Below are positions 37,005 through 57,144 of a stretch of DNA of 64,000 nucleotides, one piece after another. Position numbers and translations under genes: made by a program. The stretch's first letter is position 1. Every line of letters starts with the position of its first letter. A model generated the notes under the pieces. That model did not search any database. It saw only the letters and a program-made list of their open reading frames with translations, and had not been told where the DNA came from. The DNA is from Sediminitomix flava (GTDB lineage Bacteria; Bacteroidota; Bacteroidia; Cytophagales; Flammeovirgaceae). Where the stretch lies: NCBI RefSeq assembly GCF_003149185.1, contig NZ_QGDO01000002.1, forward strand, positions 682,001-746,000, written 5' to 3'.

Positions 37005-37051
37005 AACTCTCATTTTTAGATGCGACTTTGTTGCATTTAAAAATGAGAGTT
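37005..37051. repeat. 47-bp near-perfect palindrome enclosing the merC Zur-like box
   Basis: The 14-bp arms AACTCTCATTTTTA (37005-37018) and TAAAAATGAGAGTT (37038-37051) are exact complements, and the 17-bp operator lies between them on the same dyad at 37028. Only two positions per arm deviate and both become G-U pairs in RNA, so the transcript would fold into one 22-bp hairpin with a UUU loop. Confidence 0.9.
37020..37036. promoter_or_regulatory. Zur-type operator upstream of merC-folE-cobW
   Basis: ATGCGACTTTGTTGCAT fits ATGCRAC-N3-GTYGCAT. It lies 67 bp (centre) before the merC ATG and overlaps a candidate -33 TTG at 37031-37033, 20 bp from TACTTTTG at 37054-37061, a match to the Bacteroidota -7 consensus TAnnTTTG. 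Repressor binding here would block the promoter. Confidence 0.7.
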
Positions 37052-37094: not shown

Positions 37095-37496
37095 ATGGTA
37101 ATTTCTCAGAAATCAGATGTGTTTGGAGCTTGGGCTAGTGGTTTATGTCTGATTCATTGCCTTGCAACTCCATTATTGTACGTTGCCAAAATCTGTACAT
37201 CGTCTTGCTGTTCAGACACTCCTATGTGGTGGTCTAGCTTAGACTATATCTTCTTAGGGATTTCATTAGTAGCTGTTTATTGGTCTAGTATAAACAGTAG
37301 TAAAACTTGGGTAAGATACGCTTTATGGATGAATTGGGTTGTATTAAGTGGAATACTACTCAACGAACATTTTCACTTCTTTTCATTGGCTGAAGAAAGT
37401 ATTTATCTCCCAACCCTAAGTCTCATTTTACTTCACATATACAATAAAAAATACTGTCAGTGTGCCTCAGACGAATGTTGCACATCTGATCAATAA
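37095..37496 (+). CDS. MerC-domain membrane protein (zinc-regulated)
   Basis: The 133-aa protein has four hydrophobic segments of the MerC type. It has the metal-binding-like cysteines in LCLIHCLATPLLY and a CTSSCC pair, plus a Cys-rich tail (YCQCASDECCTSDQ). MerC was named for mercury uptake, but no merR, merT, merP or merA is nearby. The gene instead opens a unit with GTP cyclohydrolase I (12 bp later) and a COG0523 GTPase behind a Zur-type box. Zinc or other thiophilic metal handling is the more likely role. The upstream 17-bp operator sits 59 bp before the start codon. Confidence 0.8.
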   Translation: MVISQKSDVFGAWASGLCLIHCLATPLLYVAKICTSSCCSDTPMWWSSLDYIFLGISLVAVYWSSINSSKTWVRYALWMNWVVLSGILLNEHFHFFSLAEESIYLPTLSLILLHIYNKKYCQCASDECCTSDQ

Positions 37497-37508: not shown

Positions 37509-38162
37509 ATGGAAAATAAAGAAATCGAATTAATAGGTGACAACCACCTATCTAGCAATATAGAAACACCTCTTCGTCCTGATGCTTTTGAAAAGTCTGA
37601 TGAAGAGAAAATTCAAAATATTGAAGGACATTTTGCTAAAATCATGGAAGAACTTGGCCTAGACCTAACAGACTCTAGCCTATCAGGGACTCCATACCGA
37701 TTTGCCAAAATGTATGTCAAAGAATTATTCTATGGACTTGATCCTAAGAATAAACCTAGAATGTCCACTTTCGAGAATAAATATGGCTATCACAAAATGT
37801 TGATTGAGCAAAATATCACACTCAATTCTTCATGTGAACACCACTTTCTTCCAATCGTCGGACATGCACACATCGGGTATATACCTAAAGACAAAGTAGT
37901 AGGTCTTTCAAAAATCAACAGATTGGTAGACTACTATGCACACCGTCCACAAGTTCAAGAACGTTTGTGTTCACAAATCTTGAATGACCTTCAACAACTT
38001 TTAGGGACAGATGATGTGATTGTCGTTGTAAATGCACAACACCTATGTGTCTCTTCAAGAGGTATCAAAGATCAAAACAGCTCTACTGTTTCAATTGAAT
38101 ATGGCGGCCGTTTTGAGGATATCACTTACAGAAACGAATTCTTTACAAGCTTAAAAAAATAA
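37509..38162 (+). CDS. folE: GTP cyclohydrolase I, zinc type
   Basis: FolE converts GTP to dihydroneopterin triphosphate for folate or pterin synthesis. Zinc ligands are intact: Cys109 and His112 in SSCEHHFLPIVGHAHIGYIP and Cys180 in NAQHLCVSSRG, matching E. coli Cys110, His113 and Cys181. The 217-aa length is usual. It lies between merC and a COG0523 GTPase with 12-bp gaps on both sides, so it is probably a zinc-starvation copy. The unusual point is that it retains the zinc site; zinc-sparing regulons more often carry FolE2 (FolE-type IB). The GTPase next door may load its metal. Confidence 0.92.
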   Translation: MENKEIELIGDNHLSSNIETPLRPDAFEKSDEEKIQNIEGHFAKIMEELGLDLTDSSLSGTPYRFAKMYVKELFYGLDPKNKPRMSTFENKYGYHKMLIEQNITLNSSCEHHFLPIVGHAHIGYIPKDKVVGLSKINRLVDYYAHRPQVQERLCSQILNDLQQLLGTDDVIVVVNAQHLCVSSRGIKDQNSSTVSIEYGGRFEDITYRNEFFTSLKK

Positions 38163-38174
38163 TTTAACCCTATT

Positions 38175-39398
38175 ATGTCTATCGCAAGAAAACTGCCTGT
38201 CACTGTTCTTAGTGGGTTTCTAGGTTCAGGAAAAACAACCTTACTTAATCATGTTCTACACAATAAAGAAGGCTTAAAAGTAGCTGTTATTGTAAACGAC
38301 ATGAGCGAAGTAAACGTGGATGCTGATTTGGTTAAAAGTGAAAACACACTTTCGCGTACCGAAGAAAAGTTAGTTGAAATGAGTAATGGCTGTATTTGCT
38401 GTACACTTCGCGAAGACTTAATGGTAGAGGTTGAACGTTTAGCCAAAGAAAATAGGTTTGACTATCTATTGATAGAAAGTTCAGGAATTAGTGAGCCTGT
38501 ACCTGTGGCTCAAACGTTCAGCTTTATAGATGAAGAAAACGGAATTGACCTTTCTCAGTTTAGTTACATAGACTGTATGGTTACTGTTGTTGATGCTTTC
38601 AATTTCTTCAAAGATTTTGGTAGTGCCGAACTACTCATAGACCGAAACCTATCAGATATTGAAGGCGATGTCCGTACCATAGTCAACCTCCTTACCGACC
38701 AAATTGAATTTGCGAATGTCATCATTCTCAACAAAACTGATTTGGTAAGTAAAGATACTTTAGGAGTCTTGAAAGCAGCGATACACAAGCTTAATCCTAA
38801 AGCTAAAATTATCGAGTCTAGCTTTAGTAAAGTACCTCCTCAAGAAATTCTGAATACAGGAATGTTTGACTATGATGAGGCTGAACAAAGTTCTGCTTGG
38901 ATAGAAGAGGCTAAAAAAGATCATCATACTCCAGAAACAGAAGAATACGGTATTAGTTCTTTTGTGTATCGTAACAAAAGACCTTTTGATCCTAATCGTT
39001 TCTGGCAATTCATCCAAACCCAATTTCCACATTCTATCATCAGAAGTAAGGGATTATTTTGGCTAGCTTCAAGACCAGAGCAAGCACTTATTTGGGGACA
39101 AGCAGGTGGTTCTGTACGTGCCGAAAGTGCTGGTGTTTGGTGGAGTAGTATGCCTTTCGAACAACGAAGTCATTATGCTTCTTTTATCGAAAATCAAGAG
39201 TATATCGAGTCTGAATGGGATCAACAATTTGGTGACCGCAAAAATGAGCTCGTTTTTATTGGGCAAGACATGGATACAGAACTCATCATTGCTCAACTTG
39301 ATCATTGCCTTAGTACAGATGACGAATTAGCGGATGGCGATTGGGAAAATGGCTACGAAGATAATTGGCCAGTGGAAAGATCTTATCCATTATCATAA
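38175..39398 (+). CDS. COG0523 (CobW/ZigA-like) GTP-binding metallochaperone
   Basis: The 407-aa G3E GTPase has the Walker A loop [15 protein letters not shown], the COG0523 metal motif [11 protein letters not shown] (CxCC), and [13 protein letters not shown]. The NKTD guanine-specificity motif and a C-terminal CobW_C domain (about residues 265-375) follow. Such proteins deliver zinc to client enzymes when zinc is scarce. Its position 12 bp after folE suggests FolE is the client. A His/Asp-rich link ([13 protein letters not shown]) could bind metal. It is ZigA/ZNG1-type by length; cobalt-corrinoid work is unlikely here. A terminator follows at 39428. Confidence 0.92.
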
Positions 39399-39547: not shown

Positions 39548-40486
39548 ATGAATACAAATGCAAAGCCTGTCACGATACTTACAGGCTTTTTAGGAGCAGG
39601 AAAAACTACTGTACTTAATGCCATTCTAAGGTCTAAGAAGGACAGCCGTTTTGCAATTATTGAAAATGAGGTCGGTGAAATCAGCATTGATGGAGAACTC
39701 ATTGTAAAAAATACAGATTCTTTCACTGAGCTAAATAATGGTTGTATATGCTGTTCTATCAATGACAGCTTTGTAGATACACTCCGTAAAATCTCTCAAA
39801 GAGACGATTGGGATGAACTGATTATTGAAGCCACCGGTATTGCGAACCCTGCTGGTATCATTGAGCCATTCAAACAACTTCAATGGCTACAGAAGTATTT
39901 CCAAATTCCGAATGTTATCGCTATTGCAGATGCCAAAAATATAGAAAGTCAACTGAAAGTATCTGAAACAGCGGCAACTCAATTAGCTTTCGGAAATAAA
40001 ATTTATATCAGTAAAACGGAAGAAGTTCTTGAGGATGAATTACAAAGCATCAAAAAACTAGTAAAAGATTTCAATCCGCTTGCTCAGTTACATACAGGTA
40101 GTAAGTCTGCTATTCCTATAGCTGAATTGTTGAAATCAGATGAATTGAGCACAAGTCCTAGCCTTCCATCTGAACACAAACCAAAACATGATCATTTTGA
40201 AGCAATTACTTTAGTCTATGATCAAGCCTTTGACGAACAAAAGTTATTCTCACGTTTGTACACATTTCTAATTGTACAATCAGCTGATGTTTATCGATTC
40301 AAAGGTGTATTTAATGACTCAAGAAGACCAAATAAACTTGTCATTCAATCAGTCATGAAATCTTTATATGTAGAAGAAGCTGAGACATGGAATGAAGGAG
40401 ATGAAAGAAAAAGTAAGTTTGTTTTTATCGGTAAAAATCTTCAATCTAAAGGTTTTGACAGAATGCTAAAATCCTGTTTCTTGTAG
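39548..40486 (+). CDS. Second COG0523 (CobW/YjiA-like) GTP-binding protein
   Basis: The 312-aa G3E GTPase has GFLGAGKTTVLNAIL, the CxCC motif NGCICCSINDSF, EATGIANPAG and a short C-terminal CobW_C-like domain ending at RMLKSCFL. It is smaller than the first paralogue and closer to YjiA/YeiR types. It lies 149 bp after that gene beyond a hairpin, with no recognisable Zur-type box of its own, so it may be read through or have another promoter. A HKPKHDHFE stretch near residue 218 may bind metal. Its position between the first COG0523 gene and the Fur-family gene supports a metal role. Confidence 0.88.
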   Translation: MNTNAKPVTILTGFLGAGKTTVLNAILRSKKDSRFAIIENEVGEISIDGELIVKNTDSFTELNNGCICCSINDSFVDTLRKISQRDDWDELIIEATGIANPAGIIEPFKQLQWLQKYFQIPNVIAIADAKNIESQLKVSETAATQLAFGNKIYISKTEEVLEDELQSIKKLVKDFNPLAQLHTGSKSAIPIAELLKSDELSTSPSLPSEHKPKHDHFEAITLVYDQAFDEQKLFSRLYTFLIVQSADVYRFKGVFNDSRRPNKLVIQSVMKSLYVEEAETWNEGDERKSKFVFIGKNLQSKGFDRMLKSCFL

Positions 40487-40550: not shown

Positions 40551-40961
40551 CTATTTTTTTATGCATTCAGGACAAACGCCTTCTAAAGTCAAATTAGAAA
40601 CCTTCACCACAAAACCTTCTTTACACTCAATAGATGGAACTGACAAATCATTCATACAAAAAGTCTTTTTACATGAATGGCATATAAAATGAGCATGGTT
40701 TTTAACTTCTGAATTTTCAGTATACTCAAGTGCATATCTAGCATTATTATTAGGATCAGGTACTTTATGTATCAAACCCGATTTCTCAAAAGTCATGAGC
40801 GTTCTGTAAATCGTAGCCTTATCGGTTTTACCGTCTGATCTAGCTATAATTTCACTTACGGTTAATGCATGTTTAGTTTTATCAAAATAGGTCAATAACT
40901 CAATTCTAAACGCAGTTTTTCTGAGGTTATACTGATTAAGTAGGTCTTCAGGCCTTATCAT
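40551..40961 (-). CDS. Fur-family regulator, probable Zur
   Basis: The 136-aa Fur-fold repressor has a winged helix at about residues 8-75 (LRKTAFRIELLTYFDKTKHALTVSEI; KATIYRTLMTFEKSGLIHKV). Metal-site residues follow in NHAHFICHSCKKTFC and the C-terminal CPEC pair, giving the structural Cys4 zinc site plus His residues. It sits between two zinc-regulon units and has two ATGCRAC-N3-GTYGCAT boxes centred 55 and 92 bp upstream. That implies autoregulation and makes Zur the best assignment; Fur or PerR cannot be excluded by sequence alone. It diverges from the TonB receptor gene. Confidence 0.85.
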   Translation of the reverse strand: MIRPEDLLNQYNLRKTAFRIELLTYFDKTKHALTVSEIIARSDGKTDKATIYRTLMTFEKSGLIHKVPDPNNNARYALEYTENSEVKNHAHFICHSCKKTFCMNDLSVPSIECKEGFVVKVSNLTLEGVCPECIKK

Positions 40962-41007: not shown

Positions 41008-41024
41008 TTGCAACTATGTCGCAT
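41008..41024. promoter_or_regulatory. Zur-type operator B1 upstream of the Fur/Zur gene
   Basis: TTGCAACTATGTCGCAT on the + strand fits the motif on the reverse strand (first T is the only end deviation). It is centred 55 bp before the regulator start. Confidence 0.7.
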
Positions 41025-41044: not shown

Positions 41045-41061
41045 TTGCAACAAGGTCGCAT
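41045..41061. promoter_or_regulatory. Zur-type operator B2 in the divergent region
   Basis: TTGCAACAAGGTCGCAT has the same orientation as B1, with its centre 37 bp further from the regulator gene. It lies 277 bp before the TonB receptor start, so it may serve either direction. Confidence 0.68.
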
Positions 41062-41337: not shown

Positions 41338-43743
41338 ATGAAGTTATTGGAGCTTTTCTGGGGAGTGTTCGTACTAATCTGTTTATGTCCTCCCACCTTC
41401 GCTCAAGAAAATCCATGTACCTCCACTATCAAAGGAAAAATATTAGATATAGAAACGAAAGAGCCAATACCTTATGTGACCATCAAAGTAAGGGGAACAG
41501 ATAAGATTACCATCACCGACATTCAAGGTGATTTCGAAATAAAAGGACTCTGTGAAAATCAACGTACACTAATTATTTCTTGCTATGGTTATTGTGATTC
41601 TGTGTGTGAAGACTACAACCATAAAGGACAAACACCACATATTTATCTAACACAGAAAGTTCGACAATTAGATGATGTGGTCATTAAAGCACAGAAGAAG
41701 GAAGATCAAGGTATTCAAACACTTTCTTATCAAACAATAGATAAAGATTTACTAGAACGTGATTTCACTCAATCTATAGCCTCTGCAATATCAAATATCG
41801 ACGGAGTTACATTAGTTTCTACTGGTGCCAATGTACAGCTACCCGTAATTCATGGATTATACGGTAATAGAATTCTCATATTGAATAACGGTTTGAAACA
41901 TGGTTTTCAGAATTGGGGAACAGACCATGCTCCCGAAATTTCATTATCATCAGCTGAAGATATAACTGTACTAAAAGGTGCTGCTGGTGTAAAATATGGC
42001 CCTGAAGCCTTAGGTGGAGTTCTCTTAATAGAATCTGCTCCACTCTATTTTCAAGAGCCGTTTAATTTGGATGCTACTGCCAGTTACCAGACCAACGGTA
42101 GAGGTCTGTTTAGCTCACTAGACTTTGGTAAAGGCGGTGACAAATGGAGCTATCATTTAGGAGGAAGCTACACTAAAATAGGTGACCGATTTGCCCCTGA
42201 TTACTCATTAACCAACTCGGGAAAAGAAGAAGTTGCTTTTCATGCAGGCGGTAGATATCAGCTTAAAGACTGGGATTTCAATCTGTACTACAGTTTTGTA
42301 GATCAAGACTTGGCACTTTTACGCTCATCGGTTTTTGAAAGTGGCACAGCGTTTATCAATGCAATAAATGCAGATGAACCACTTTTCATTGAGCCATTTT
42401 CATACGAAATCAATGCACCAAACCAGACTACTATTCACCATTTAGGAAAAATAAAGATTGATTGGAATTATAAGGAAAGCAATAAATTCACCTTTTTATC
42501 GGGTGTTCAGCTCAATAAAAGACAAGAATTTGATGTCAGGAGAAATGCAAATAAACCCATTATTGACCTTGACTTACTGACTACCGATTACCAATTAGAA
42601 TGGAAGCACCCAAATTGGGGCAGCCTTAGTGGACTTGTAGGTTTACAGCTTTTCACCCAGAATAATGACAACAATCCAGGAACAGATACTACACCTTTCA
42701 TTCCAAACTACAACTCAACCCGATACAGTGCCTTTGTCATTGAAAGCTTAAGAAAGGGGAAAAATACATTTGAATTTGGCTTGAGAGTGGACACAGAATC
42801 TAATAATGTAAGAGGGCGTGAAACCAATCAAGATATATTTAGAGATGAATATACCTTCACAAACCTCACACTTTCTTTTGGTTTCATACGAGAACTATCT
42901 GACTTTGCTACATTCCGAACAAATTTTGGTTCGGCTTGGAGAACACCTAACATGGCAGAACTCTATAGTTTTGGTCAGCATGGCTTCAAAGCCACCTTTG
43001 GATTACTCCGTTACCGCGTTGAAGATGGAGTGCTCAAAACAGATAAGGTTCTCGAACTTGATGACAGTGATGTTTCTCCTGAAAATGGGCTTAAATGGAT
43101 AAATGAGTGGCGTATGGAAAAAGAAAGTAACACTTTTGTCATCACAGCTTATTCACATTACATTCAAAATTTTATTTTCGAACGTCCTGCAGGTATTACA
43201 GGTACAGTCAGAGGGCCTTTACCTGTTTTTATCTATGATCAAGTAGATGCACTCTTTATTGGTGGCGACTTTACTTGGAGAAAACAATGGCTTCAAAATC
43301 TGAATGGACAATATTCAATCAGTTATTTATGGTCTAGAAATATTGAAGATAACGAGGTTCTTATCAATCAACCACCTCTAACGAACTCTTACCGATTGAC
43401 GTGGGATACTCCAAGATTTTGGACATTCAACGAATCTCAATTGAACCTCAGTGCTAGTTATACCTTTGAGCAATTTCAAGCACCAAGAACAATTCCTCCA
43501 GAAGATATTATAAATGGTGATGTAGAACTCACTCCCGACTCTGAAATATTTGATTTCAAAGATGCTCCTAGCGGATACTTTCTGTTAGACCTTTCGTATC
43601 GATTTAAAGTCGGACGATTTGATAATAGCTTTTCAATTCAAAATCTGTTGAATAATAGTTATCGAAACTATCTCAATGAAATGAGGTATTTCGCTGACGA
43701 ACCGGGTATAAATTTTCTATTCACTGTTCGCTACCTTCTTTAA
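41338..43743 (+). CDS. TonB-dependent outer-membrane receptor, probable zinc receptor
   Basis: The 801-aa protein has a signal peptide (MKLLELFWGVFVLICLCPPTFAQ). A carboxypeptidase-regulatory-like domain with extra cysteines occupies about residues 28-105. A plug (LDDVVIKAQKK ... NIDGVTLVSTGANVQLPVIHG; VLKGAAGVKYGPEALGGV) and a 22-strand barrel ending in aromatic YLL follow. The plug phrase HGLYGNRILILNNG resembles metal receptors of the ZnuD type. It diverges from the Fur/Zur gene across a region with two Zur-type boxes and is followed by an acidic lipoprotein gene 87 bp on. Zinc uptake is inferred from context; other metals are possible. Confidence 0.85.
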   Translation: MKLLELFWGVFVLICLCPPTFAQENPCTSTIKGKILDIETKEPIPYVTIKVRGTDKITITDIQGDFEIKGLCENQRTLIISCYGYCDSVCEDYNHKGQTPHIYLTQKVRQLDDVVIKAQKKEDQGIQTLSYQTIDKDLLERDFTQSIASAISNIDGVTLVSTGANVQLPVIHGLYGNRILILNNGLKHGFQNWGTDHAPEISLSSAEDITVLKGAAGVKYGPEALGGVLLIESAPLYFQEPFNLDATASYQTNGRGLFSSLDFGKGGDKWSYHLGGSYTKIGDRFAPDYSLTNSGKEEVAFHAGGRYQLKDWDFNLYYSFVDQDLALLRSSVFESGTAFINAINADEPLFIEPFSYEINAPNQTTIHHLGKIKIDWNYKESNKFTFLSGVQLNKRQEFDVRRNANKPIIDLDLLTTDYQLEWKHPNWGSLSGLVGLQLFTQNNDNNPGTDTTPFIPNYNSTRYSAFVIESLRKGKNTFEFGLRVDTESNNVRGRETNQDIFRDEYTFTNLTLSFGFIRELSDFATFRTNFGSAWRTPNMAELYSFGQHGFKATFGLLRYRVEDGVLKTDKVLELDDSDVSPENGLKWINEWRMEKESNTFVITAYSHYIQNFIFERPAGITGTVRGPLPVFIYDQVDALFIGGDFTWRKQWLQNLNGQYSISYLWSRNIEDNEVLINQPPLTNSYRLTWDTPRFWTFNESQLNLSASYTFEQFQAPRTIPPEDIINGDVELTPDSEIFDFKDAPSGYFLLDLSYRFKVGRFDNSFSIQNLLNNSYRNYLNEMRYFADEPGINFLFTVRYLL

Positions 43744-44448: not shown

Positions 44449-44508
44449 AAAACTGTACTAAAACTATTTGAGATATAATTTCTTGTATAGTTATGTACAG
44501 TTTTTTTT
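44449..44508 (+). terminator. Strong hairpin and T-tract just before the HisI-like gene
   Basis: AAAACTGTAC (44449-44458) pairs with GTACAGTTTT (44495-44504), with an inner AACTAT/ATAGTT stem, then continues in a T-run. The HisI-like ATG follows only 10 bp after the T-run, so this may be an attenuator rather than a simple end. Confidence 0.7.
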
Positions 44509-44518
44509 ATTGCAAACT

Positions 44519-44929
44519 ATGGACAAACAAATCATAGAACTCGAAGAAGGACTTAACTGCGATCTTCAATTTGAGAAAAGAAACGGTTTACTTCCTGTAG
44601 CCGTACAAGAGTACTCAACTGGACAAATTTTAATGCTTGCCTCTGTAAATCAAGAAGCTTTTGATATCACAGTAAAAACTGGTAAAGCTACTTTTTGGTC
44701 TACATCTCGGAATTCACTTTGGACAAAAGGAGAAACTTCTGGAGACTTTCTGAAAATGGAAAAAATCTTGGTAGACTGTGATCAAGATGCCCTAATATTT
44801 CAAGTGACATTACAAGGTTCGGGTTCGTGTCATACCTATGACCAAGAAGGCAAACATCGTAAAACCTGCTTCTACAGAGAGCTTGACTTAGAAGAAAAAA
44901 AGCTAGCATTCATCAAAGAATTAAAATAG
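44519..44929 (+). CDS. hisI: Stand-alone phosphoribosyl-AMP cyclohydrolase paralogue (HisI-like)
   Basis: From ATG at 44519 this 136-aa protein has the HisI signature ATFWSTSRNSLWTKGETSG, the Mg-site DCDQDA with zinc Cys87, and Cys104 and Cys117. HisI converts PR-AMP to ProFAR in histidine synthesis. Usual HisI has about six residues between the second and third cysteines; here there are twelve (CHTYDQEGKHRKTC), a changed metal loop. No other his gene is near, and the location inside the Zur cluster matches reports that HisI paralogues are induced by zinc starvation. The frame runs upstream to 44468 but that start lies within the hairpin. An isolated his gene is the alternative reading. Confidence 0.82.
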   Translation: MDKQIIELEEGLNCDLQFEKRNGLLPVAVQEYSTGQILMLASVNQEAFDITVKTGKATFWSTSRNSLWTKGETSGDFLKMEKILVDCDQDALIFQVTLQGSGSCHTYDQEGKHRKTCFYRELDLEEKKLAFIKELK

Positions 44930-46324: not shown

Positions 46325-47038
46325 TTATAGCGTATTCAAATCGATCACTTCAAAGTTTCGAGTATCAAAATAATCATCCAAACCATAATCTGTATTAATA
46401 ATTATCCCCCCCAGTAGAGTTACCTTATCTACATTAAACTCCTCTTTACACGTTTTCAGATGTTCATGGATTTTTTCATCAATAACTCTATAAGTTGCTT
46501 CTGTGATTGCTTTTGACGGATTATCACTTCCTAATATTTCTGCTCGATACGGTAATAAACTTTCTTCCAACTTCATTTGCTGATAGTCAGGTTCATTGAC
46601 TACAGGAACGTAATCTTCATCTTGAAAACGGTCTAGGGCAAGCATTAAAGCACCGCAAGAATTTCCTGTTTCCTCCATTCTTGGTCGATACATTTTCCCC
46701 AATTCACCATCTAAAGTAATTCCTATATGTGGACCGTAAAAAATGAAAGCACTCCCTTCATCAGGGACGTGGTGAGCAAATGCGGTCATTCCTGTCTGAC
46801 CAACAAATGGAAGACCTCCTAATCCGCCCATTGAGAAAGGACCAAACAAGACATTAAAAAAAGTAGTGGATGGGACGTTAATATCATCAGAACATACAGA
46901 AGTAGCCATGAGTACTTTTGAAACATCAAGTTGATGTTCAATTTGCATTTTCCCTAAGTAATGAATTGAGGTGTCTTTCGCATCTTTAGCATTAGGAAAT
47001 TCTTTTTTAACTACTTGATCAAATTTTCTTTGTAACAT
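46325..47038 (-). CDS. LCIB/C-type beta-carbonic-anhydrase-like protein
   Basis: The 237-aa protein resembles the LCIB_C_CA family, named from limiting-CO2-inducible proteins of algae. Candidate zinc ligands Cys49 (TSVCSDDIN), His104 (FYGPHIGIT) and Cys128 (GNSCGALM) are in the family order. GGLGGLPFVGQTGM and FAHHVPDEG are also conserved-looking. Members interconvert CO2 and bicarbonate, though many are inactive or partners of others. A Zur-type box sits 71 bp (centre) upstream, so it may be a zinc-starvation isoform of carbonic anhydrase. A terminator follows immediately. The family call is from motif recall; catalytic activity is not established. Confidence 0.7.
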   Translation of the reverse strand: MLQRKFDQVVKKEFPNAKDAKDTSIHYLGKMQIEHQLDVSKVLMATSVCSDDINVPSTTFFNVLFGPFSMGGLGGLPFVGQTGMTAFAHHVPDEGSAFIFYGPHIGITLDGELGKMYRPRMEETGNSCGALMLALDRFQDEDYVPVVNEPDYQQMKLEESLLPYRAEILGSDNPSKAITEATYRVIDEKIHEHLKTCKEEFNVDKVTLLGGIIINTDYGLDDYFDTRNFEVIDLNTL

Positions 47039-47483
47039 GCTATAAAATGGTTGTAAAGTTAATAAGGTTTTAAATGTAAAGGTAGATTTTTCGAGCTCAT
47101 ACGCGACTATATCGCATAAATGGTTAGTGTTATTAAGATATTAAGAATGAAACTAATAAGTATTATATTTCAATAAGAAACACCGATAGTTAAGCTTAAT
47201 TAAAATAGATTAAAATAACCTATGTTACATCTAAATATAAAAAATTGAGTAGGGCAATTTATACTCTAAATTGTTATACTCCCATCCTTCTTTCAGATAA
47301 GAATATTCTTAGCTGTAATCATGTTATTTTTCAACCTTTAAAAGAAAAATCGAGATCCATTTTATAAAAAAATACGATTCAGTTTTTCAATTCCTTTACG
47401 AAAGCCATTTTTTAAAGTCTTAATCAATGATTAAAGCCTAGATCTTGTTTGTTTTTTATGTCAAAAACTAAACAAACTAACAA
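47039..47483. other. 445-bp divergent intergenic region holding a Zur-type box
   Basis: It lies between the LCIB-like gene (-) and the DUF2807 gene (+). The Zur-type site at 47101-47117 is the only clear signal. A weak TAnnTTTG-like element for the minus strand (TACCTTTA) is near 47076-47083. The rest is AT-rich. Confidence 0.5.
47101..47117. promoter_or_regulatory. Zur-type operator upstream of the LCIB-like gene
   Basis: ACGCGACTATATCGCAT differs from ATGCRAC-N3-GTYGCAT at two positions (C at 2, A at 11). Its centre is 71 bp upstream of the LCIB-like start, similar to the 67 and 55 bp of the merC and regulator boxes. Confidence 0.6.
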
Positions 47484-56328: not shown

Positions 56329-57144
56329 ATGAGATTCTCCTTTTTAGTACTTTTTGTTCTTCCATTCTTTTCGTGTTCTCATGAAAACACAAATGAACAG
56401 AGTAATGAAATCATCGTTACGAAGTTTCAAGAATTACTTGATTCAGCAAAGCTTGAAGGAGCAATCCTAATTTATGATTTAGATCAGAATAAGTATTACA
56501 CAAGTGATTCTGAAAAAGCTAAAATAGGAAGTTTACCAGCTTCAACTTTCAAAATCCCGAATTCGATCATAGCCCTAGAAACAGGTGTTGTTGAAAATGA
56601 TAGTACACTGTTCAAGTGGAATGGAGAAAAAAGAGCTATGAAGATTTGGGAACAAGACCTCATTTTCAGAAATGCCTTTCATTATTCTTGTGTTCCTTGC
56701 TATCAAGAAATTGCTAGAGAAATAGGAGTGAAAAGAATGAACGAATACTTGGACAAATTAGATTATGGAAACATGGAGGTCGATTCTTCAAACATCGATT
56801 TGTTTTGGTTAAGAGGAAATTCTAAAATCAGTCCATTTCAGCAAATCGATTTCCTAAAGCGGTTTTATCAGTCTGAGCTTCCAATTAGTTCAAGAACAGA
56901 GGTAATCATGAAAAAAATAATGATTATCGAAGAAAATTCAGCGTATCAGTTAAGTGGAAAAACAGGTTGGTCAACCGATAAAAATATAAATAATGGATGG
57001 TTTGTCGGATATATTAAAAAAGGAAACAAGGTCTATTTCTTTGCTAATAACGTACAACCAAAACCTGAATTCGACATGAAAAACTTCTCTTCAGTGAGAA
57101 AGAAACTTGTTTTTCAAGCCTTAGAACATTTGAAAATTCTATAG
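56329..57144 (+). CDS. Class D (OXA-type) beta-lactamase, lipoprotein
   Basis: The 271-aa enzyme has a lipobox (FFSC, Cys16), so it is likely membrane-anchored in the periplasm. Class D motifs are all present: Ser72-T-F-Lys75 (PASTFKIPNS, nucleophile and carbamylated lysine), the second serine motif Ser120-C-V122, YGN at 146-148 and KTG at 211-213. WFVGY follows. The SxV motif reads SCVPC, so residues 121 and 124 form CxxC next to the active site, unlike the A/T usual there. The substrate spectrum cannot be predicted. The next gene encodes another beta-lactamase-fold protein. Confidence 0.92.
   Translation: MRFSFLVLFVLPFFSCSHENTNEQSNEIIVTKFQELLDSAKLEGAILIYDLDQNKYYTSDSEKAKIGSLPASTFKIPNSIIALETGVVENDSTLFKWNGEKRAMKIWEQDLIFRNAFHYSCVPCYQEIAREIGVKRMNEYLDKLDYGNMEVDSSNIDLFWLRGNSKISPFQQIDFLKRFYQSELPISSRTEVIMKKIMIIEENSAYQLSGKTGWSTDKNINNGWFVGYIKKGNKVYFFANNVQPKPEFDMKNFSSVRKKLVFQALEHLKIL

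Follow-up and report, generated by a model that had tools for sequence, protein, structure and literature searches.

The closest described relatives of the protein reported here are the algal LCIB/LCIC proteins and PtLCIB4 (structures 5k5w, 5b5x and 5b5y; Pfam family PF18599), and the closest described regulatory setting is that of carbonic anhydrase (CA) paralogs that belong to Zur regulons in other bacterial phyla. Two of these serve for comparison, the gamma-type Cam of Proteobacteria and YtiB of Bacillus subtilis, which is a beta-class enzyme. For Proteobacteria, the accessible part of Haas et al. 2009 (PMC2770081) describes Zur-linked paralogs that include a gamma-CA and HisI, several of which keep their zinc ligands. 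By their titles and the beginnings of their abstracts, openly licensed papers on LCIB, Zur and carbonic anhydrase deal with plants or algae, and in the same titles and abstract openings we found no report of a Zur-linked LCIB, which does not prove novelty.

We analyzed an LCIB-type gene of Sediminitomix flava in a stretch of 64,000 nucleotides of its genome (the window). We propose, with a probability of roughly 80%, that it encodes a Zur-repressed back-up LCIB-class carbonic anhydrase that is made in zinc starvation. Zinc-loaded Zur would repress this beta-fold CA gene from a site that overlaps its promoter; when zinc falls, Zur would leave, and the LCIB protein would be produced alongside the products of zinc-uptake genes, the COG0523 metal chaperones, and the second copies of FolE and HisI. 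It would then maintain CO2/bicarbonate exchange while the cell's housekeeping carbonic anhydrases lack metal, and would itself be metallated with priority (perhaps by the COG0523 chaperones) or with another metal. In this scheme we infer that Zur is the protein that binds, that the signal is zinc, that the enzyme is catalytic, and that it is loaded with priority or with another metal. The LCIB family, the fold, the kept metal site, the operator, the promoter spacing and the conservation over many genera are computed results. A preliminary description had called the gene a Zur-linked zinc-starvation CA; the analysis supports the family, an active-type site, the operator and a back-up role, and the sequence does not support zinc sparing through changed ligands.

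The 237-residue protein matches the PF18599 profile with 172.3 bits (E = 1.2e-50, cut-off 25), an HMM search result that bears out the LCIB family membership proposed earlier. Among solved relatives, the best sequence match is the LCIB-domain protein 6kfs (E = 1.7e-35), followed by 9w05 and 9vzj and then by PtLCIB4 (E = 3.3e-25). An AlphaFold (AF2) model built from 37 sequences (mean pLDDT 81.4, below 50 at residues 54-57 and 63-75) aligns with 6kfs at Z = 26.8 over 229 residues and with PtLCIB4 (5b5y) at Z = 26.4, as against Z ≤ 10.2 for plain beta-CAs. Structure prediction thus gave an LCIB fold (Z of 26-27 to solved LCIB homologs), and by profile and model the gene product is a member of the LCIB family with a predicted LCIB fold. 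A scan of named genomes found 70 relatives, 68 of them at 75-88% identity and two Ignavibacteria rows at 48%; by title, nearly all of the 68 are Bacteroidota, including Flavobacteria, Cytophagales and Saprospiraceae, and one is a planctomycete bin. The span 46325-47117 given in the preliminary description covers the gene and its operator rather than a single reading frame. A frame reaching 47117 is ruled out because there is no in-frame start codon between 47038 and the upstream stop, and because the relatives start at the position equivalent to 47038 (their alignments begin at residue 1 in 68 of the 70, and at residue 8 in the other two).

Table 1. Features of the LCIB locus, the zinc cluster beside it, and related sites in this and other genomes (window positions, except where a prefix C or L is given)
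Feature	Position	Strand	Remarks
LCIB-type carbonic anhydrase gene	46325..47038	(-)	237 aa, ATG start; PF18599
Zur-like operator ATGCGATATAGTCGCGT	47101..47117	(-)	near-palindrome, 2 mismatches (15/17) to ATGCRACNNNGTYGCAT
Putative -7 promoter element TACCTTTA	47077..47084	(-)	5/6 fixed bases of TAnnTTTG, 16 nt past box
Zur-like box before MerC-like/folE/COG0523 genes	37020..37036	(+)	0 mismatches; promoter-like element 17 nt past
Small membrane protein, presumably MerC-like	37095..37496	(+)	ORF; homolog in 15/70 LCIB loci
FolE-type GTP cyclohydrolase I	37509..38162	(+)	NCBIfam FolE 262.1 bits, over cut-off
COG0523 GTPase, ZigA-like	38175..39398	(+)	PF02492, PF07683; NCBIfam ZigA 557.3 bits, below cut-off 600
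Second COG0523 GTPase	39548..40486	(+)	PF02492 and PF07683
Fur-family regulator, probable Zur	40551..40961	(-)	136 aa; PF01475 49.8 bits; two boxes in front
Zur-like box between zur and TonB receptor	41008..41024		1 mismatch; promoter-like element 15 nt (+) and 17 nt (-) past
Zur-like box between zur and TonB receptor	41045..41061		1 mismatch
TonB-dependent receptor	41338..43743	(+)	PF07715, PF00593; divergent from zur across two boxes
HisI-like phosphoribosyl-AMP cyclohydrolase	44468..44929	(+)	PF01502 92.2 bits
Box at 116-aa ORF and TonB receptor	C3:179125		≤1 mismatch
Box between TonB receptor and DUF2480 gene	C3:840509		≤1 mismatch
Box at ABC transporter	C4:211124		≤1 mismatch
iota-CA gene	L162 1501-1974	(-)	
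iota-CA gene	L163 1501-1971	(-)	
iota-CA gene	L164 1501-1974	(-)	
iota-CA gene	L165 1498-1971	(-)	
165-aa gene, example	L090 10811-11308	(+)	

The gene shares the window with a cluster of zinc-starvation genes (Table 1). The probable Zur scores 38.4 bits against the NCBIfam Zur model, below the cut-off of 167, and its genomic context fits Zur. A promoter-like element was sought on both sides of the second box in front of it (41045..41061) and none was found. From its boxes, the TonB receptor probably takes up zinc. The folE and hisI genes of the cluster each have a second copy in the genome, at C4:201254 and C1:628094. Boxes with at most one mismatch occur at six sites in the genome, three in the window and three outside. 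Those outside, together with two boxes that have two mismatches each (C1:465671 and C1:465710), are probably the rest of the zinc regulon; the genes next to them encode TonB receptors, a DUF2480 protein and an ABC transporter. A LolD/MacB-type ABC transporter recurs in the zinc clusters of related loci (for example, L032 14150-14815 (-) and L047 11961-13235 (-)); its ATPase cluster is present in 21 loci and its permease cluster in 18, and it is a possible zinc transporter. Elsewhere in the window, we take the ORF at 56329-57144 (+), from its STFK motif, to resemble a class D (OXA-type) serine beta-lactamase.

We compared the metal site of the window protein and the 70 rows that reached a profile score of 380 or more, whether or not they carry a zinc mark (71 clade proteins), with that of 38 other LCIB proteins; L023, L024 and L126, which duplicate L038, L034 and L096, were omitted from this comparison and from the promoter-spacing count below, and were retained in the tree and in the family and phylum counts. 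Cys49, His104 and Cys128 are where the preliminary description had placed them and the site is intact: C49, D51, H90, H104, R118 and C128 are invariant in 71/71 clade proteins and 38/38 others (109/109). The metal ligands of beta-CAs are two Cys and one His, according to the accessible part of a review (PMC5876011), and from this rule and the alignment C49, H104 and C128 would be the ligands here. The window protein looks like the active type because Ser50 (71/71 clade proteins, 35/38 others) aligns with Ser47 of PtLCIB4, a position that is Arg in the S47R mutant chain; the window protein has Ser there and not Arg.

The preliminary description had also raised zinc sparing, which might mean altered metal ligands. 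We sought loss of a zinc ligand in the 71 clade proteins, as the mark of a zinc-independent paralog, and it was absent. Since every zinc ligand is kept in all 71, zinc sparing by ligand loss is without support, and the sequence therefore does not separate priority metallation from use of another metal. The latter, a true zinc-sparing CA whose Cys-His-Cys site would hold Co, Fe or Mn, is an alternative that we consider less likely than not. Zur-type control beside COG0523 chaperones would suit it, other metals or none were proposed for such paralogs by Haas et al. in the accessible part of their text (PMC2770081), and residue 89 is His in 71/71 clade proteins and Ser in 31/38 of the others; against it, the ligands are identical to those of the other clade.

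Searches for beta-CA and alpha-CA showed that the genome of the window also has one beta-CA gene and two alpha-CA genes, and that a beta-CA is present in 23 of the 30 carrier genomes tested (30 of the 70 loci). The back-up role proposed earlier fits because of these genes. No beta-CA was found in the other 7 of the 30, some of which are draft bins, and the LCIB protein may therefore not back up that class in those genomes. An iota-class CA occurs in 4 of the 18 genomes of the window's own family (match to 7c5x with E = 9e-91 and to 7c5v with E = 6.5e-30), and in all four it stands behind a Zur-like box (2, 2, 1 and 0 mismatches). It is beside a zur-like gene in three of these genomes and behind hisI-folE in one, and in two of the four it is followed directly by a gene for a protein of 165 aa. 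An iota-CA was also searched for in the genome of the window, with no match. In G105, which is outside the family, the iota-CA/165-aa pair has no box in the stretch examined. We presume that 7c5x and 7c5v are the iota-CA proteins of the study in PMC8132391.

The 165-aa gene also lies within two genes of the LCIB gene in 23 of the 70 loci, and adjoins it in G199. Its product belongs to an undescribed family, with no match in Pfam and NCBIfam or in a sequence search of the PDB. The model of this protein (pLDDT 81.0) gave 50 listed Foldseek rows, all of them beta-carbonic anhydrases (best E = 2.9e-7), and aligns with a beta-CA at Z = 15.8 over 157 residues. Among 21 aligned members Cys9 is invariant and no His column exceeds 13/21; Ser/Ala63 and Asn66 would fall at about the positions of the beta-CA His and second Cys, if our register is right. 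Because no His is conserved, the family lacks a Cys-His-Cys zinc site. No significant match came from profile comparisons between the family and beta-CAs, or between LCIB and either of these, in a weak test for which 6 of 16 fetched beta-CA stretches passed a C[SA]DSR filter, and the link to beta-CAs is through predicted folds only. The protein may act as an enzyme without metal, or serve as a partner subunit. In the phylum sample described below the family matches at least 5 of 392 genomes (one copy broken; only some candidates scored), and a search of the genome of the window found none. The gene occurs without LCIB in G003 and G004, and behind a zur-like gene and a box, without an iota-CA, in G009. 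Distant relatives are found beside an SbtA-like gene (L160, 1465-2022 and 1988-2959) and beside a SulP-like gene (L140, 2-1456 and 1498-2001), both named by reading.

These neighbors bear on a second alternative, in which the product is a non-catalytic LCIB homolog that binds or buffers zinc, or is a structural partner, and is made under zinc starvation. We regard this as improbable. Three of six purified LCIB homologs lacked CA activity according to the accessible part of the review (PMC5876011), the zinc site is kept, and a gene for a CA-fold protein is so often nearby, all of which would suit such a protein; however, the same part of the review ties inactivity to a disordered His and Arg, which would correspond to H90 and R118, and these residues and Ser50 are kept in 71/71 clade proteins. 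Also against a non-catalytic role, the similar Zur-boxed operons hold an iota-CA, and COG4337-type enzymes are active without metal, as stated in the accessible part of PMC8132391. For the back-up enzyme that we favor, the 165-aa gene and the iota-CA as neighbors strengthen CO2/bicarbonate chemistry under zinc shortage as its role. More tentatively, marine Bacteroidota could have a Zur-controlled zinc-starvation module for CO2/bicarbonate, made of a replacement CA (LCIB or metal-free iota) and the 165-aa ligand-less protein of predicted beta-CA fold.

The operator itself was described earlier as a 15/17 match to the Zur box 71 bp upstream of the gene; it is present, and the 71 nt run from the box center to the LCIB ATG, with 62 nt from the near edge. 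TAnnTTTG is the consensus of the -7 promoter element, and if the TAnnTTTG-like element past the box is a -7 element, Zur would cover the -33 region. In the whole genome (6.6 Mb), sites with up to two mismatches to the box number 30, versus 25 for a backwards control pattern. At such a chance rate one site is expected about every 220-260 kb and 0.3 in a 64-kb window, so the LCIB box taken alone is weak evidence. It is far beyond chance because the site is directly before the gene, is spaced from a promoter-like element, and recurs before orthologs. Spacings were counted in the 19 rows that have a box of their own beginning 40-120 nt ahead of the gene start. In 16 of these 19 orthologous promoters the box is followed, 14-17 nt further on, by the start of a promoter-like element (≤1 mismatch to TAnnTTTG); 1000 shuffles gave 0.7 on average and never more than 4.

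In the 400 nt that precede the LCIB gene, a box with no more than one mismatch is present in 13 of the 70 loci and one with no more than two in 21, and most of these boxes are 63-97 nt before the ATG. When genes that precede LCIB in the putative operon (same strand, gaps ≤200 nt) are counted as well, a box is present at 43 of 69 loci and the reversed pattern at none of the 69, so the Zur-type operator has counterparts before orthologs, as far as can be read from loci that were chosen by similarity, share ancestry and are not independent. The total is 69 because L056 was not recognised in the gene calls. A zinc-starvation gene, meaning COG0523, zur, a MerC-like gene or the ABC permease that recurs, is present in 32/69 loci, and a box or such a gene in 52/69; the remaining 17 have neither, and some of their stretches are short. 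That the box matches by chance and marks a plain LCIB gene of bicarbonate metabolism, as its two mismatches and the small genome-wide excess over the control might suggest, is very improbable in view of the counts for the true and reversed patterns and of the conserved promoter spacing, which includes the window's own.

In the window's own family the LCIB gene is present in 5 of 18 genomes. Carriers with a box include G009 and G011; at the G008 copy and at both G002 copies a box was sought and not found, and one of the G002 copies adjoins the recurring ABC permease. In a quick tree, built with long-branch warnings, 56 of the 57 zinc-linked rows are within one starred branch of 73 rows, the exception being L122; the zinc label would have to change 17 times on this tree. 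PF18599 is present in 38 of 392 evenly sampled genomes of the phylum, the window's own included. In the other 37 carriers we examined roughly 6 kb to either side of the LCIB gene. Scores against the clade profile are low for 34 of the 37, which form a second LCIB group, and in these stretches a box was found in 0/34 and a zinc gene in 0/34. The three that score higher are L122 (in G199), with two boxes, and L126 and L134, without a box. A zinc mark within 6 kb on each side is thus restricted to two of the 38 carriers, G199 and the genome of the window, and the zinc-linked LCIB type is a minority in the phylum with a patchy spread.

In 8 of the 34 second-group loci (L109, L114, L115, L118, L123, L125, L131 and L136) there is both an SbtA-type bicarbonate transporter gene and a P-II-like (SbtB-like) gene; the SbtA identification rests on PF05982 (374.8 bits in the one example checked). 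This pair was sought in the zinc-set loci and not found there. The second-group LCIB, SbtA and P-II-like proteins are a candidate bicarbonate-uptake unit in Bacteroidota. The idea from gene sizes that this group has DAB-type neighbors was rejected, since the sequences read as helicase, RsmI-like and Lnt-like.

If the proposed back-up role is true, bacterial LCIB would gain a concrete job beyond CO2 concentration and would join the carbonic anhydrases already in Zur regulons (gamma-type Cam and YtiB). It would also pose the testable question of why some Zur-linked paralogs retain their zinc ligands, by priority metallation or by use of another metal. The 165-aa neighbor and the iota-CA operons suggest that zinc shortage may favor several unlike CAs in one role.

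Among known systems, the COG4337-type iota-CA (7c5x, 7c5v) is alike in having homologs behind Zur-like boxes in four genomes of the family, but it is an unrelated protein, metal-free according to the accessible part of PMC8132391, and without a match in the genome of the window. B. subtilis YtiB is likewise a carbonic anhydrase under Zur, as given in the accessible part of a Zur review (PMC6103462), but it is a different protein, from Firmicutes. Cam of Proteobacteria is, in the accessible text of PMC2770081, a CA paralog that shares predicted Zur regulons with COG0523, HisI and FolE-type genes, and the cluster in the window, with its second copies of FolE and HisI and its two COG0523 GTPases, resembles this Proteobacteria pattern; the class there is gamma, whereas here it is the unrelated LCIB beta-type, in another phylum. 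To LCIB/LCIC and PtLCIB4 the window protein is similar in predicted fold (Z = 20.4, 19.1 and 26.4 for 5k5w, 5b5x and 5b5y), in its metal-site residues and, as in PtLCIB4, in the active-type Ser. Unlike algal LCIB, which is under low-CO2 control, it is bacterial, 237 aa long, and encoded behind a Zur-type operator among zinc-starvation genes.
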